From assembly GCF_000263195.1 (NCBI RefSeq), contig NC_018748.1:1860001-1924000 (forward strand): a stretch of 64,000 bases of DNA. Direction: 5' to 3'. This stretch comes from Emticicia oligotrophica DSM 17448. Lineage in GTDB: Bacteria; Bacteroidota; Bacteroidia; Cytophagales; Spirosomataceae. The notes beneath the pieces were generated by a model. The model worked only from the letters and a program-made list of their open reading frames with translations. It was not told the DNA's origin and searched no databases. This document shows positions 6,911 through 53,940 of this stretch, piece after piece; positions within the stretch are counted from its first letter, which is position 1, and every line of letters begins with the position of its first letter. Both the position numbers and the translations under genes were made by a program.

Positions 6911-6957
6911 AAAAATATTAGTATGCTTGCATACTAATATTTTTGTTTATATCTTTG
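6911..6957 (+). promoter_or_regulatory. Operator-promoter of acyl-CoA dehydrogenase gene (fatty-acid regulon site)
   Basis: A perfect inverted repeat with 16-bp arms (AAAAATATTAGTATGC, 6911-6926; mirror 6929-6944) surrounds a 2-nt centre. The centre supplies TTG (6927-6929), spaced 20 nt from TATCTTTG (6950-6957), a perfect Bacteroidota -7 element. A repressor bound here would cover the -33 region. The same arrangement precedes the other acyl-CoA dehydrogenase gene, near 53.9 kb. Confidence 0.85.
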
Positions 6958-6993
6958 ATTCATCAACAATAACAAACGATAAAACCAAATAAA

Positions 6994-8157
6994 ATGGCAG
7001 CTACAACAATTGAAGGAATAAACTTTAATCTCACCGAAGAGCATTTAGCGGTAAGAGAAGCCGCTCGTGAATTTGCTCAAACTGAGCTTTTACCAACCGC
7101 CATTGAGCGTGATACCCACTCGGTTTTTCCCTATGAACAAATCAAAAAAATGGGAGAACTGGGCTTTATGGGTATGATGGTCTCGCCAGAATACGGTGGT
7201 GGTGGAATGGATACAATCTCGTATGTGTTGGCGATGGAAGAAATTTCAAAAATTGATGCTTCTGCTTCAGTTGCGATGTCAGTTAATAATTCATTGGTCT
7301 GCTGGGGCTTAGAGGCGTTTGGTACAGAAGAACAGAAGCAGAAATACCTCAAACCTTTGGCATCAGGACAAATCATTGGAGCGTTTTGTTTGTCGGAACC
7401 AGAAGCTGGTTCGGACGCTACTTCACAAAAAACAACTGCTGAAGATAAAGGCGACTATTATTTGGTAAATGGTACTAAAAACTGGATTACTAATGGCGGA
7501 ACATCATCAGTTTGTTTGGTTATTGCTCAAACCCACCCAGAGTTGAAGCACAAAGGCATCAATGTGCTGATTATAGAGAAAGGTACCGAAGGATTTGTGG
7601 TTGGCAAAAAAGAAGATAAAATGGGTATTCGTTCTTCAGATACACATTCGTTGATGTTTACTGATGTAAAAGTGCCCAAAGAGAACCGAATTGGTGTCGA
7701 TGGTTTTGGATTTAAGTTTGCCATGAGTACACTCAATGGTGGTAGAATAGGCATTGCAGCTCAAGCACTCGGCATTGCGGCAGGTGCGTATGAATTGGCC
7801 GTGAAGTATTCGAAGGAAAGAAAGGCTTTCGGAAAGTCGATTAGCGAGCATCAGGCTATTCAGTTTAAATTGGCCGAAATGGCAACCAAAATCGAAGCGG
7901 CACGTTTGTTAGTTTATAAAGCAGCTCGCGATAAAGACGAAGGTAGAGATTATGTTGAGTCTGCCGCAATGGCCAAACTTTTTGCCTCAGAAGTGGCCAT
8001 GTGGGCTACTACCGAAGCCGTCCAAATTCACGGTGGATATGGCTACGTGAAGGAATTTCACGTTGAGCGTTTGATGCGTGATGCTAAGATTACACAAATT
8101 TATGAAGGCACTTCTGAGATTCAGAAACTTGTTATTGCTCGCGAGATTTTAAAGTGA
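6994..8157 (+). CDS. Short-chain type acyl-CoA dehydrogenase
   Basis: This 387-residue enzyme has the usual length and order of acyl-CoA dehydrogenases: an N-terminal helical domain, a middle beta domain with AFCLSEPEAGSDA and NWITNGG (FAD and substrate contacts), and a C-terminal helical domain ending IYEGTSEIQ. The catalytic base Glu371 lies in that last motif. It oxidises acyl-CoA to trans-2-enoyl-CoA in beta-oxidation or branched-chain amino-acid breakdown, with electrons passing to ETF. The closest pattern is butyryl-CoA dehydrogenase. Expression is probably controlled by the palindromic operator at 6911-6944. Confidence 0.95.
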   Translation: MAATTIEGINFNLTEEHLAVREAAREFAQTELLPTAIERDTHSVFPYEQIKKMGELGFMGMMVSPEYGGGGMDTISYVLAMEEISKIDASASVAMSVNNSLVCWGLEAFGTEEQKQKYLKPLASGQIIGAFCLSEPEAGSDATSQKTTAEDKGDYYLVNGTKNWITNGGTSSVCLVIAQTHPELKHKGINVLIIEKGTEGFVVGKKEDKMGIRSSDTHSLMFTDVKVPKENRIGVDGFGFKFAMSTLNGGRIGIAAQALGIAAGAYELAVKYSKERKAFGKSISEHQAIQFKLAEMATKIEAARLLVYKAARDKDEGRDYVESAAMAKLFASEVAMWATTEAVQIHGGYGYVKEFHVERLMRDAKITQIYEGTSEIQKLVIAREILK

Positions 8158-40939: not shown

Positions 40940-41085
40940 TGTATATGTTTTAGATTTTAGGCCGAACTCTATTTTATCTCGAAAAAGATGGCCAAAATTA
41001 TGAAAATATTTGTTGCTTAACGATAAATTTTGAGAAAAGATATGATTAATATTTAGTAGGCATACTACTTTTTTACTTTTAAGTT

Positions 41086-41137: not shown

Positions 41138-42847
41138 TTACTTCTTAGCCATTTCTTCTTCTTTTAAACTTCTACGAAGAATTTTACCAACATTGGTTTT
41201 TGGTAATTCTGTTCGGAACTCAATATGTTTCGGACATTTATAGGCAGTCAAGTTTTCTCGACAATATTTCTTTATATCATCTGCTGTAAGATTTTGGTCT
41301 TTTTTCACCACAAATACCTTCACCGCTTCGGTTGATTTTTCATCAGGCACGCCAATACAAGCAACTTCGAGTACTCCCGGACAAGTAGCTACTACATCTT
41401 CGATTTCGTTTGGATAAACATTAAAGCCCGAAACCAAAATCATATCTTTCTTTCTATCAACAATTTTGAAGTAGCCATCTGCATCCATCACTCCAACATC
41501 ACCTGTTTTAAACCAAGCACGCTTATCGGCATCAATAAACATAACTTTAGCAGTTTCATCTGGTCGATTATAATATCCTGCCATTACCTGTGGCCCGAAA
41601 GCACAAATTTCGCCGGGTTCTCCTACGGCTGCCCAAGTTTCATCATCTTTCAAAATTTTAACTTCAGTGCTTGGCCACGGAATACCAATAGTACCTACTC
41701 TATTCTCTCCAATCAAAGGATTTGATGTAAGTACAGGCGAAGTTTCAGACAAACCATAGCCTTCGGCAGGTAAATTACCCGTAAGTTCTTTCCAACGATT
41801 AGCTACTACACCTTGAAGAGCCATGCCACCAGCCGATGTAATTACTAGTTTACTAAAATCTACTTCTTTGATTTTGGGGTGATTCAATAAACCATTATAA
41901 AGTGTATTCACACCTGTAAATACATGCGGTGGATATTTTTTCAAATCCTTAATAAATGCTTCTAAATCACGTGGGTTGGTAATTAACAAATTCATCGTAC
42001 CCGTTTTCAATGAAGTAAGAGCATTTACAGTTAAAGCATAGATATGATATAAAGGCAATGCTGCCACAACCACCACTTTTTCATCGGTGATTTTATGAGT
42101 CAGTACGCCTTGCCATACATTGTTTGCTTCAAGGTTAGCTACAATATTTCGGTGTGTAAGCATTGCTCCTTTCGAAACTCCTGTTGTTCCGCCTGTATAT
42201 TGGATAAAAGCTAAATCAGAGTTCTTCATTTGAGGCTTCGCCCAAGTAAGGCTAGCTCCTTGTTTCACCGCATTCATGAAAGGCACTGCCGAAGGGAGAC
42301 TAAAAGCAGGCACCATTTTCTTTACACTCTTGACAACAAAATTGACGATTTGCTTTTTCGGGAAACCTAACATATCACCCAACTCTGTCACGAATACATG
42401 CTTAATTGAAGTATGTGCTATTATCTTCTCAAGACTTGAGGCAAAATTTGCTACGATTACGATTGCTTTTGCTCCAGAGTCTTTGAACTGGTGTTCCATT
42501 TCGCGTGGTGTATAAAGCGGATTCGTATTCACAACTGTTAAACCAGCACGTAAAGCACCAAACATCGCCACTGGATATTGTAGTACATTTGGCATTTGAA
42601 TGGCGATACGGTCACCTTTTTGCATACCTATACTTTGTAAGTAAGCTGCAAAGTTTTTTGAGAGAGTATCTAATTGCCCAAATGTAATTTCTTTACCCAT
42701 ACAGGCATAGGCCGACTTGTTGGTATGGTTTTTAAAACCCTCTTCCATCAACTCCAAAATTGAGGGGTAGGCTTCTGGGTTAATTTCGTATGGAACTCCT
42801 TGGGGATAGTATTTCAACCAAGGAAATGTTTCAGTGGTAACAGGCAT
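41138..42847 (-). CDS. fadD: Long-chain acyl-CoA synthetase (FadD-like)
   Basis: This 569-residue adenylate-forming enzyme has the P-loop YTGGTTGVSKGAMLTHRN (about 222-240), EGYGLSETSPV, the hinge TGDVGVMDADGYFKIVDRKKDMI and the C-terminal lysine in KTNVGKILRRSLK. It activates fatty acids to acyl-CoA, feeding the acyl-CoA dehydrogenases encoded elsewhere in the window. No TTAGTATGC operator is seen upstream (42848-43048), so it may be outside that regulon. It is divergent from the glycosyltransferase locus. Confidence 0.95.
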   Translation of the reverse strand: MPVTTETFPWLKYYPQGVPYEINPEAYPSILELMEEGFKNHTNKSAYACMGKEITFGQLDTLSKNFAAYLQSIGMQKGDRIAIQMPNVLQYPVAMFGALRAGLTVVNTNPLYTPREMEHQFKDSGAKAIVIVANFASSLEKIIAHTSIKHVFVTELGDMLGFPKKQIVNFVVKSVKKMVPAFSLPSAVPFMNAVKQGASLTWAKPQMKNSDLAFIQYTGGTTGVSKGAMLTHRNIVANLEANNVWQGVLTHKITDEKVVVVAALPLYHIYALTVNALTSLKTGTMNLLITNPRDLEAFIKDLKKYPPHVFTGVNTLYNGLLNHPKIKEVDFSKLVITSAGGMALQGVVANRWKELTGNLPAEGYGLSETSPVLTSNPLIGENRVGTIGIPWPSTEVKILKDDETWAAVGEPGEICAFGPQVMAGYYNRPDETAKVMFIDADKRAWFKTGDVGVMDADGYFKIVDRKKDMILVSGFNVYPNEIEDVVATCPGVLEVACIGVPDEKSTEAVKVFVVKKDQNLTADDIKKYCRENLTAYKCPKHIEFRTELPKTNVGKILRRSLKEEEMAKK

Positions 42848-45922: not shown

Positions 45923-47734
45923 ATGAATAAAAAAACAATCATCTATTTATTGATACTTTTGCCTATTGTTGGCTTTTATGTGTTTGTATTAAATAATTCT
46001 TTCAATATTGGTTGGAATGATGATTGGCATGGCATCGAGGGGTTCTTGGCAAGTTGGATGCAACAAGAAACATTCTCTGAGAAAATTGGCTTGCTTTTTT
46101 CTCAAATGTGCGAACACCGAATTCTTTATGTTCGTCTTAGTACGCTACTTTGCTATTATTTATTTGGAGAAGCCAATTATCAAATACTAATGATTATGGG
46201 GGTTTCGTACCTCATGATACTTCCTTTTGTATTTTATCGACTTTTGAGAGAAATTAATTTAGGATTAGCTTATTTAATTCCGATTTTATTCTTCATTTTT
46301 AATATACAACCCATTGAAAATATCTTTTGGGCGATTACCTCACTTCAGCCAAACATTGTGATAATTTTTGGTCTATGGGGGTTTTCTTTACTACTTTTCA
46401 ACAAGCAAAAGTGGGCTTTTTATTTGGCCAATGTCTTATTCTTTATTGCTATGTTTACTAATGGCAATGGAATGTTTTCGTTTATAGCAGCCATTCCGTT
46501 AGTGTTTTATGCTCGTACCCGTTCTGAACGAATTCAATACTTGGCAATTCTTGGTTTTTCATTTATCCTTTATTTCTTTGATTTCAAAAAACCGGGTATT
46601 CGACCTGATGTGATGATAAATTTCACCCAATATCCTCACATTCTGATAGCAGATATTTTTGCTTTTTTTGGTTCACCAATAGATAGCACCGTGCAGTTTT
46701 ATAATATTATGCTTAAATATACGGTGGCTATTTTGTTTGGGGTTTTAATGCTAGCTTGGGTTTTGTATCAATTATGTGTGTTTTTATACTTTTGGTTTCA
46801 AACAACCTACAAGGGATTAGCCATTGAAAAAACGAGTACTTTGTACCAAAATATCATCAAATACCCCAAATTTAACCTCTTTTTACTTGCTGCTTTAATA
46901 TTTGTAGGCTTAAGTGGCTCTGCTTTCGCTGCTTCAAGGGCGAGTCAGGGTTTAGAACAAGCTTTTGCCAGTCGATACAAAACGGTTGCATTGATTCTTT
47001 TTATCATTGTATATCTGAGTTTCTATAATGTTATTCAGGTTAAAAACTGGTCAAAGTATTTAAAAACTTCCATTTTGGTTGCTTTCATTTTCGGTGCTTT
47101 TTCTTACTATGAAGCTTGGGACGATGTAGAAAATCGTAGAAAATTCTTCGGAACTACCATTTTGAATTGGAAAAATAATGGGCGATATTATTATTATGCT
47201 TTTGCACATTCTCGCACTCCCGATGACCACGCTCCTATCTCATCTTATCAAAGATTACCTATCCCGCCCTATAATTATGCAGGTTTTGTTCCGGGAGTAA
47301 TGAAATATGTTAATGATATCTTGTGGATAAGTCGTGTTCATTTCAAAAATTATACACCACCTGCTGAAATAGATAGCTTAAATTTTACACTTTATAAAAA
47401 CCAAATTGTAGGTAATTCGGGCGAATTGGTAAAAATTAAGGAAGAAAGCAATCTTTTCCACATAGAAATCAACAATTTGTTCATTCCTGCCAACCGTAGA
47501 TATGATGGTTACTATGCTTTATTTAGCAATGACAAAAATCGACTGGCTTTTTACCTTGAAACTCAAGCAAATAAATTTTCAAATTTTTTAAGTTCTCAAA
47601 AGTTTTATAACAATCGAATAGATGTCATTGTAGCCAAGCCTGACCTCCCTATTGGAACTTTTAATATGCAAATCGGAAAACTTGAAAACGGCCAATTTAA
47701 AATAATCAAAGAACAAGTGATTGAAATTAAGTAG
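45923..47734 (+). CDS. Polytopic membrane protein, GT-C-like
   Basis: This 603-residue protein has about ten membrane helices between residues 5 and 400, then a C-terminal soluble domain (about 430-603). The first periplasmic loop begins with NNSFNIGWNDDWHGIEG, and an acidic 'NDD' there recalls the catalytic loop of GT-C glycosyltransferases (GtrC/ArnT type). I infer that it transfers a sugar from a polyprenyl-phosphate donor made by the adjacent GtrB-like protein, outside the membrane. No named family is recognised. The FAD oxidoreductase gene is 59 bases downstream. Confidence 0.65.
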   Translation: MNKKTIIYLLILLPIVGFYVFVLNNSFNIGWNDDWHGIEGFLASWMQQETFSEKIGLLFSQMCEHRILYVRLSTLLCYYLFGEANYQILMIMGVSYLMILPFVFYRLLREINLGLAYLIPILFFIFNIQPIENIFWAITSLQPNIVIIFGLWGFSLLLFNKQKWAFYLANVLFFIAMFTNGNGMFSFIAAIPLVFYARTRSERIQYLAILGFSFILYFFDFKKPGIRPDVMINFTQYPHILIADIFAFFGSPIDSTVQFYNIMLKYTVAILFGVLMLAWVLYQLCVFLYFWFQTTYKGLAIEKTSTLYQNIIKYPKFNLFLLAALIFVGLSGSAFAASRASQGLEQAFASRYKTVALILFIIVYLSFYNVIQVKNWSKYLKTSILVAFIFGAFSYYEAWDDVENRRKFFGTTILNWKNNGRYYYYAFAHSRTPDDHAPISSYQRLPIPPYNYAGFVPGVMKYVNDILWISRVHFKNYTPPAEIDSLNFTLYKNQIVGNSGELVKIKEESNLFHIEINNLFIPANRRYDGYYALFSNDKNRLAFYLETQANKFSNFLSSQKFYNNRIDVIVAKPDLPIGTFNMQIGKLENGQFKIIKEQVIEIK

Positions 47735-52045: not shown

Positions 52046-53845
52046 TTAAAAAATATACTTGTTCTCGGCAATCATAGCATCAGCTACTCTGCGACGAGCT
52101 TCTTTCACATTCATTGGTTCGATTTTCGTGAAGCGTTTTAAGCCCATTAACATTACTCTCAATTCATCACCTTCTGCAAATGAAGTAATTGCTTCACGGC
52201 CTGCATTATTTACTTTGGCTACTGCTTCTTGTAAGTAAATCAAAGCCATATCTTTTTGAAGTGATACCGCCGCTTCGCCTTTGATACCAATCAGTTTTTC
52301 AACTCTTAATAATGCTGATTCGGCCGCATAAATTTCGATGGCCATATCGGCTACATTCATCAAAATTTCTTGTTCATTTGATAATGACATCATAAACTTC
52401 TGTACAGCAGCACCTGAAACCATTAAAGCAGCTTTTTTCAAGTTTTTCAATACTTTCTTTTCTGCTGCAAATAGTGTTTCATCATCAGAAGCACCAAAAT
52501 CAGGAATAGACATGATTTCTTTGGCAACAGCCATTGCTGGGCCCATCAAATCAAGTTCGCCTTTCATTGCTCGCTTCAAAAGCATGTCAACAATCAACAT
52601 TCGATTGATTTCATTTGTACCTTCAAAAATTCGATTAATACGGGCATCACGATAGGCACGCTCAAGTGGAGCTTCTGCCGAATAACCCATACCACCATAT
52701 ACTTGTAAGCTCTCATCTACTACAAAATCTAAAACCTCTGAGCTATGTACTTTCATGATTGCACACTCAATGGCAAATTGTTCGAGTGCCTTTAACTTCG
52801 CATCAGCATCATTCAAACCTTGTGCTTTTAAATCTTCAATGGCATCGTCAATGTTTTGCCCCGCACGGTAATTTGCAGTTTCAGAAACAAAAATACGAGT
52901 AGCCATTTCAGCTAATTTATGCTTAATAGCTCCGAATGTTGCAATAGAAACACCAAATTGTTTACGCTCATTTGCGTAATTGATTGCATGATTCAAAGAA
53001 CCCTTCGAACCTCCAATAACTGCTACCCCCAACTTGATACGTCCAACATTAAGAATATTTACAGCAATCTTAAATCCATTTCCTCTACTTGAAAGCATAT
53101 TTTCTACTGGAACATGGCAATCATTGAAGAAAATCTGACGCGTATCTGAACCCTTAATACCTAATTTATGCTCAGGCTCATTCATTGTAATTCCACCAAA
53201 CGATTTTTCTACAATAAACGCCGTCAAGTTTTTATCATCATCAATTTTTGCAAAAACAATAAACAAATCTGCAAAACCACCATTGGTTATCCACATCTTT
53301 TGTCCATTGATAATGTAATGCTTTCCATCTGCTGAAAGAACAGCCTTCGATTTACCAGAATTTGCATCCGAACCAGAATCTGGCTCTGTCAAACAGTAAG
53401 CAGCTTTCCATTCTCCCGAAGCAAGCAATGGAAGATATTTTGCTTTTTGTTCATCATTTCCGTAATAAACAATTGGTAATGTTCCAATACCTGTGTGTGC
53501 CGATTGTGCAACTGAAAATGAGTGTCCCGTTCCAAGAGCTTCAGCAACTAGCATTGAAGTATTGAAGTTCATACCAAATCCACCGTATTCTTCTGGTACT
53601 GCAGTACCCAACAAACCTAACTCGCCAGCTTTTGTCATTAGAGTTGACATTAACTCTGGCGATTTTGCATTATCAATTTCATTCAAACGTGGGTGAACTT
53701 CTGTTTTTAAGAAATCACGACAAGTTTCAGCAATCATTAATTGCTCTTCAGTAAACTCTTCTGGTATGAAAATTTGGTGAGCTTCTACTTCTTTCACTAA
53801 GAATTCGCCACCTTTAATCGATGCTTTATTTTCGGTTGCTGTCAT
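52046..53845 (-). CDS. Acyl-CoA dehydrogenase, long form
   Basis: This 599-residue enzyme has the normal acyl-CoA dehydrogenase core (residues about 25-420): AYCLTEPDSGSDANS, MWITNGGFADLF, the Arg-rich stretch NERKQFGVSIATFGA, and IFEGTNEINR with the catalytic glutamate. A 170-residue C-terminal extension of helices follows, like the very-long-chain or VLCAD-type proteins of bacteria. It opens beta-oxidation by dehydrogenating acyl-CoA. Two copies of the TTAGTATGC-type operator flank its promoter, shared with the shorter dehydrogenase gene at 6994. Confidence 0.94.
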   Translation of the reverse strand: MTATENKASIKGGEFLVKEVEAHQIFIPEEFTEEQLMIAETCRDFLKTEVHPRLNEIDNAKSPELMSTLMTKAGELGLLGTAVPEEYGGFGMNFNTSMLVAEALGTGHSFSVAQSAHTGIGTLPIVYYGNDEQKAKYLPLLASGEWKAAYCLTEPDSGSDANSGKSKAVLSADGKHYIINGQKMWITNGGFADLFIVFAKIDDDKNLTAFIVEKSFGGITMNEPEHKLGIKGSDTRQIFFNDCHVPVENMLSSRGNGFKIAVNILNVGRIKLGVAVIGGSKGSLNHAINYANERKQFGVSIATFGAIKHKLAEMATRIFVSETANYRAGQNIDDAIEDLKAQGLNDADAKLKALEQFAIECAIMKVHSSEVLDFVVDESLQVYGGMGYSAEAPLERAYRDARINRIFEGTNEINRMLIVDMLLKRAMKGELDLMGPAMAVAKEIMSIPDFGASDDETLFAAEKKVLKNLKKAALMVSGAAVQKFMMSLSNEQEILMNVADMAIEIYAAESALLRVEKLIGIKGEAAVSLQKDMALIYLQEAVAKVNNAGREAITSFAEGDELRVMLMGLKRFTKIEPMNVKEARRRVADAMIAENKYIF

Positions 53846-53878: not shown

Positions 53879-53940
53879 ATTATGCGTGCATACTGTTACA
53901 AAGATAAATATTTTTAAAATTATTATGCAAGCATACTAAT
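53879..53940 (-). promoter_or_regulatory. Operators and promoter of the long acyl-CoA dehydrogenase gene
   Basis: On the minus strand, operator B (53919-53940, ATTAGTATGC-TT-GCATAATAAT) contains TTG (53930-53928) as the -33 element. A 21-nt spacer leads to TATCTTTG (53906-53899). Operator A (53879-53894, AGTATGC-AC-GCATAAT) lies just downstream of the -7. Both sites are imperfect copies of the perfect palindrome at 6911-6944. Confidence 0.8.

Follow-up and report, generated by a model that had tools for sequence, protein, structure and literature searches.

The 64-kb stretch of DNA analyzed here (the window) lies on contig C5 of the 5.22-Mb genome (G000) of Emticicia, a freshwater bacterium that belongs to the Cytophagales. 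Two acyl-CoA dehydrogenase genes in it are preceded by the same palindrome, AGTATGC-NN-GCATACT, which occurs once at 6920-6935, before the short dehydrogenase gene, and twice before the long one (53922-53937 and 53879-53894). This raises the question of whether both genes obey one regulator, and of which protein that would be. A sequence-only reading had proposed that a single regulator acts through a shared operator on a fatty-acid oxidation regulon. The genome-wide motif search, the conservation of the sites before orthologs, and a candidate regulator that carries the site itself all fit this proposal. Judging from these comparisons, we consider it probable that the palindrome is the operator of a MarR repressor that controls the fatty-acid β-oxidation regulon of Emticicia and is putatively released by acyl-CoA.

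The long acyl-CoA dehydrogenase (599 aa; 52046-53845, minus strand) contains PF21263, PF00441, and other Pfam domains and scores 808 bits against NF058590 (cut-off, 600). Before it, the minus strand carries in order TTAGTATGCTTGCATAATAA (53939-53920), TATCTTTG (53906-53899), and AGTATGCACGCATAAT (53894-53879); in the direction of the gene, this reads TTAGTATGC-TT-GCATAATAA, then TATCTTTG, then AGTATGC-AC-GCATAAT. The first site (O1, 53920-53939), which is kept in relatives, covers the −33 region. As the sequence-only reading had noted, a TTG occupies its center (53928-53930); this is a probable −33 element. The −7 element (53899-53906) fits the TAnnTTTG consensus, and the second site (O2, 53879-53894) follows directly downstream, with transcription predicted to start near 53894. 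Two core sites are present in 19 of 24 family orthologs. The short dehydrogenase (387 aa; 6994-8157, plus strand; PF00441, PF02771, and PF02770) has the same layout in TTAGTATGC-TT-GCATACTAA, a perfect palindrome (6918-6937, plus strand) from which TTAGTATGCTTGCATAATAA differs by one mismatch over 20 nt, followed by TATCTTTG (6950-6957, plus strand), with a predicted transcription start near 6962. The −7 box had been placed 21 nt on, which holds for the 6.9-kb copy; for the long dehydrogenase, the distance is 22 nt after the G of the TTG. Likewise, the second site described as weaker is indeed present just past the −7 box, but since O1 and O2 each match 13/14 positions of the 16-bp core, the word “weaker” fits only its outer flanks.

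Within the window, only three positions match AGTATGCNNGCATACT at 12/14 or better, and all are operator sites of the two dehydrogenases. RKTATGCNNGCATAMY matches three times in the window vs zero in each of 100 first-order Markov resamples. By itself, the half-site TTAGTATGC is not enriched there (18 found with up to one mismatch vs a mean of 16.0 expected), and TATCTTTG alone is equally unremarkable (8 found, a mean of 4.0 expected, and the count reached in 9 of 100 shuffles). The significance thus belongs to the full palindrome, and the half-site and the −7 box alone carry no signal. The identical −7 boxes had been offered as an argument for one regulator. We find them unsuited as evidence, because TATCTTTG is common and because the box in relatives becomes TAACTTTG or TATATTTG while the operator stays intact. 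The reported absence of a copy before fadD, fabI, accD, and the desaturase was borne out in the window, where the best upstream matches reach 8-9/14; Pfam matches identified fadD and the desaturase, and fabI and accD were assigned by inspecting their translations. The fadD-like acyl-CoA ligase (41138-42847, minus strand; AMP-binding domain; upstream best, 9/14) accordingly stands outside the regulon. Downstream of it, at 41053-41068, lies TTAGTAGGCATACTAC, a near-palindrome resembling overlapping half-sites, which was left uncounted because it lacks the 2-bp spacer.

Extending the motif search to the whole genome, a check proposed with the sequence-only reading, yielded 19 occurrences of the core TATGCNNGCATA vs 3 for the same pattern read backwards, and AGTATGCNNGCATA gave nine forward and nine reverse matches vs one and one for the control. 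When two mismatches are allowed, the contrast falls to 23 sites vs 12 reversed. Two-mismatch matches at C5:339, 406428, and 593163 were read but left out of the site count, and those at C5:905820, 3295327, 3358324, and 4299544 lie outside the examined set. Sixteen of the 19 core copies are intergenic; the three inside genes (C5:1258771, 1600512, and 4145545) are taken as background.

Behind the intergenic sites stand most steps of β-oxidation, namely acyl-CoA dehydrogenases, ECH/3HCDH, 3HCDH, thiolase, and ETF. Besides the window dehydrogenases (C5:1866922, 1913881, and 1913924), sites precede a nucleotidyltransferase-like gene with a fadB-type ECH/3HCDH (470034), a thiolase (1194659), a CCG-domain Fe-S protein (1393979), the MarR gene (1626660), an SCP2 gene with an acyl-CoA dehydrogenase-like gene (1822994), a 4Fe-4S protein (2114932), a same-strand cluster running from DUF4442 through 3HCDH to thiolase (2217390 and 2217434), an NADP-dependent reductase (2228398), a fatty-acid hydroxylase (3315640), ETF beta and alpha together with a small divergent gene (4378676), and an ABC transporter (744438); one more (1979569) lies between a divergent DUF3089/TonB-receptor pair. 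The nucleotidyltransferase, the ABC transporter, ETF alpha, the third dehydrogenase, and the cluster's 3HCDH and thiolase were labelled from sequence or similarity rather than Pfam. Dehydrogenases, ECH/3HCDH, thiolase, ETF, or Fe-S proteins account for 11 of the 16 intergenic sites, and one site precedes the MarR-family gene. Five of the 16 precede genes that are not clearly β-oxidation, which counts against our explanation. No fab gene stands behind any of the 16, and fabI and accD of the window have no core site.

Comparing upstream regions in relatives, we found the motif conserved before the orthologs, whereas the sequence-only reading had named a lack of conservation as the contrary outcome. 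Within the family, the core is present upstream of 22/24 long-dehydrogenase and 16/21 short-dehydrogenase orthologs. Across 11 relatives (G021, G022, G023, G003, G101, G062, G200, G044, G138, G090, and G036; the MarR site of G023 excluded), 45 of 61 sites adjoin homologs of the reference set from the Emticicia genome (−40 to +360 bp from the start), some of these homologs being weak (e.g., 33% identity). With five regions chosen by MarR added, the count becomes 51 of 67. Family f2 fits most poorly, with 4/12 sites, and most of its sites precede other genes. Six flavobacteria-like genomes hold 14 sites, in five of them, and zero matches to the reversed pattern; 10 of the 14 lie before ETF (four), MarR-3HCDH (three), or TonB receptors (three, one of them at 28% identity).

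The likely reader of the palindrome, as far as sequence can indicate, is a MarR-family gene outside the window (C5:1626717-1627184; 156 aa) with a winged-helix domain (PF01047, 48.5 bits; cut-off, 24.6). Its nearest named relatives include a protein of Emticicia aquatilis at 97% identity. A perfect 16-bp palindromic site, a predicted operator, lies in its own promoter, 59 nt before the ATG. A MarR match is present in each of the 23 other genomes of the family that were searched, and the core is found within 250 bp upstream of MarR in 21 of the 24 orthologs from the family (all but G016, G017, and G019) and upstream of 3/6 in other families (missing in G034, G036, and G037). In the flavobacteria-like family f26, it lies within 200 bp upstream in 17/17 loci, these being the f26 members among the 30 best-scoring MarR loci, mostly with the flank GCATAGT instead of GCATACT. 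In other families, MarR heads a β-oxidation operon with the same core in front; 3HCDH is directly beside MarR in 25 of 26 loci read (3 of the 26 being already within the set of 24 family and 6 other-family orthologs), and G032 and G027 share the order MarR, 3HCDH, thiolase, long dehydrogenase. In the recognition-helix span P55 to E72, residues G58, E60, S63, R66, and E72 are invariant in 41 aligned orthologs.

The site and MarR also occur together across the order. Among 194 genomes drawn from it (MarR match at E ≤ 1e-20), the strict motif is present in 105 of 134 genomes with a MarR ortholog vs 6 of 60 without (Fisher p = 5.6e-20, ancestry ignored), and site totals are 345 vs 12 reversed in the former and 11 vs 5 in the latter. 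The association also holds within families: the sole MarR genome of f9 has two sites and its ten genomes without MarR have none, and MarR-less genomes in f2 (G024 and G153), f16 (G039), and f18 (G041) have zero. Contrary cases exist. Twenty-nine of the 134 MarR genomes lack the strict motif, and in some of these the core remains with another flank; in f14, G082 has three sites and no MarR match, while G108, G160, G189, and G197 have MarR and no sites. Two of the six genomes with motif and without MarR (G103 and G185) are 75% and 62% complete, and their congeners have MarR. MarR was the sole regulator covered by this comparison. It bears on the alternative that the regulon is real but another factor, such as a TetR-type FadR, reads the sites and MarR is merely a target. 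Repressors of fatty-acid degradation from the TetR family do exist elsewhere (PMC6449355). However, MarR co-occurs with the site both in the order as a whole and inside single families, its own promoter contains a copy, and in other families it is the first gene of the operon; this makes the alternative unlikely.

How a repressor would act is suggested by where the sites lie. Bacteroidota sigma-A promoters carry TAnnTTTG at −12 to −5 (PMC9723704) and TTTG near −33, a −33 motif not being found in F. johnsoniae (PMC7366714, PMC2483708). In the Emticicia genome, the site falls in two registers, with its center either 18-25 nt before the start of the −7 box (both dehydrogenases, MarR, the SCP2 cluster with TAACTTTC, the TonB receptor, and DUF4442) or 20-26 nt after it (fadB, thiolase, ETF, the hydroxylase, DUF4442, and the long dehydrogenase); the two Fe-S sites were put in the downstream register by eye. 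A strict TAnnTTTG stands in register in 11 of 17 site-gene pairs, counted by hand with registers chosen after seeing the data, vs a 5.4% background (225 of 4,200 positions in the upstream regions of 35 genes in the window). It is absent in register from both Fe-S promoters, the SCP2 cluster, DUF3089, the reductase, and the ABC transporter. In three ortholog sets, whose members are not independent, the central TT that yields TTG is found in all 34 sites whose distance to a following −7-like box is 21-23 nt vs 8/47 other sites. Within the Emticicia genome, it occurs in 5/6 upstream-register vs 1/8 downstream sites (p = 0.016; p = 0.005 with MarR left out), the MarR site being the upstream exception with a CT center at 18 nt. 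Thus, an operator-embedded TTG is a plausible promoter element at most but not all sites.

Based on this anatomy, a MarR dimer would bind TATGCNNGCATA centered near −34, over the −33 region with TTG as its center, or at about +8 to +14, past the −7 box, and at either register it would block RNA polymerase. Since both are blocking positions, repression is the natural mode. The long dehydrogenase and the DUF4442/3-hydroxyacyl-CoA dehydrogenase cluster, which have both sites, would be shut most tightly, and because the MarR gene carries the site, the repressor would limit itself. When fatty acids arrive, FadD, standing outside the regulon, would make acyl-CoA, and acyl-CoA or an early intermediate would release the repressor; since fadD has no site, acyl-CoA could be produced while the regulon is still closed, which makes it the likeliest signal. 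Upstream of the long dehydrogenase, 19 genomes have two core sites, which bracket the −7 box at spacings of 43 bp (nine genomes), 45 bp (two), 48 bp (three), 51 bp (four), and 52 bp (one). Looping, which the sequence-only reading had suggested for the double site, is not indicated because this spacing is not helically constant; we reject a looping or cooperative phase on this variation.

The same positions weigh on the idea that MarR reads the site but activates, or that its main task is the breakdown of branched-chain or other acyl-CoAs and not of long-chain fatty acids. MarR activators have been described (PMC5487221), and the top NCBIfam match of the short dehydrogenase is an acryloyl-CoA reductase, below cut-off. 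Yet the operators cover part of the −33 region or follow the −7 box, where they would block, and the targets cover the whole β-oxidation cycle with ETF; we regard this idea as improbable, more so than another reader. That the palindromes are RNA hairpins or terminators is rejected as very improbable on site position and number: perfect palindromes can fold once transcribed, as the downstream class would be, but the upstream class precedes the −7 box and so is untranscribed from it, and there are just 19 copies, before related genes in many genera.

The proposed MarR repressor resembles known systems in part. Members of the MarR family commonly keep catabolic genes, and the gene that encodes them, repressed until early intermediates of the pathway relieve the repression; for HcaR, the reported inducers are hydroxycinnamate-CoA thioesters (PMC5487221). 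HcaR and CouR are MarR repressors of aromatic acid catabolism and thus share catabolic targets with the regulon described here; they serve a different pathway, and their similarity to the Emticicia protein is weak (CouR is among its PDB matches at E = 2e-4). FabT, the nearest lipid-related MarR regulator considered, is alike in family, in its link to lipid metabolism, and in being the first gene of the operon it controls (PMC13046290), just as MarR heads the operon in other families. In contrast, FabT acts on synthesis, and its co-repressor is acyl-ACP (PMC5487221), whereas here degradation genes carry the operator and fabI has no site. The FabT model NF050133 gives the Emticicia MarR 22.6 bits (cut-off, 200), so that neither the score nor operators at synthesis genes place it with FabT. 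Repressors of the FadR type control fatty-acid degradation through a GntR protein in E. coli and a TetR protein in Bacillus. They do the same job on a β-oxidation regulon and, like the repressor proposed here, would probably be released by acyl-CoA, but they belong to protein families other than MarR (PF01047) and use a different operator.

Full-text searches of the open-access literature brought up no regulator of fatty-acid degradation, MarR or other, for Bacteroidota. β-Oxidation genes of Flavobacterium psychrophilum, a species outside the genomes surveyed here, rise in mucus and plasma (PMC9723704). We give roughly even chances to the broader reading that an undescribed master β-oxidation repressor operates across Cytophagales and flavobacteria-like families, with operators placed in the unusual Bacteroidota promoter in two registers, the −33 TTG forming the palindrome center in one, and with the TonB receptor as a fatty-acid or lipid importer. 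If the MarR proposal is right, one gene and one 12-bp core would allow the regulon to be predicted in many Bacteroidota genomes; the uncharacterised TonB receptor, DUF4442, DUF3089, Fe-S protein pair, and fatty-acid hydroxylase would be probable parts of lipid use; and the sites would offer a test of repressor action on the −33/−7 promoters of Bacteroidota.

Several minor observations concern individual genes. The 603-aa ORF at 45923-47734 of the window has no Pfam match at E ≤ 1e-5. The core site before the ABC transporter (C5:744438; L325:2939) has no −7 box in register and is either a real target or a chance match. Two Fe-S proteins stand behind the operator, a 4Fe-4S membrane-like protein (L037:4044-5387) and a CCG-domain protein (L033:5128-5922); the pair is adjacent in several relatives (L173, L203, L205, and L219) and is a possible electron outlet for ETF. 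The TonB-dependent receptor behind the operator (C5:1976266-1979547; L036:1267-4548) is a candidate lipid importer, and homologs that also carry the operator occur at about 40% identity in two flavobacteria-like genomes and at 63% in the same-genus G003 (L304, L305, and L196). Finally, in two f2 genomes, the operator precedes a phasin-like gene (L199:2527-2949, labelled by a Pfam Phasin match of 20.4 bits, below cut-off, and L208:2517-2939, labelled by eye), hinting at storage-polymer targets in that family.
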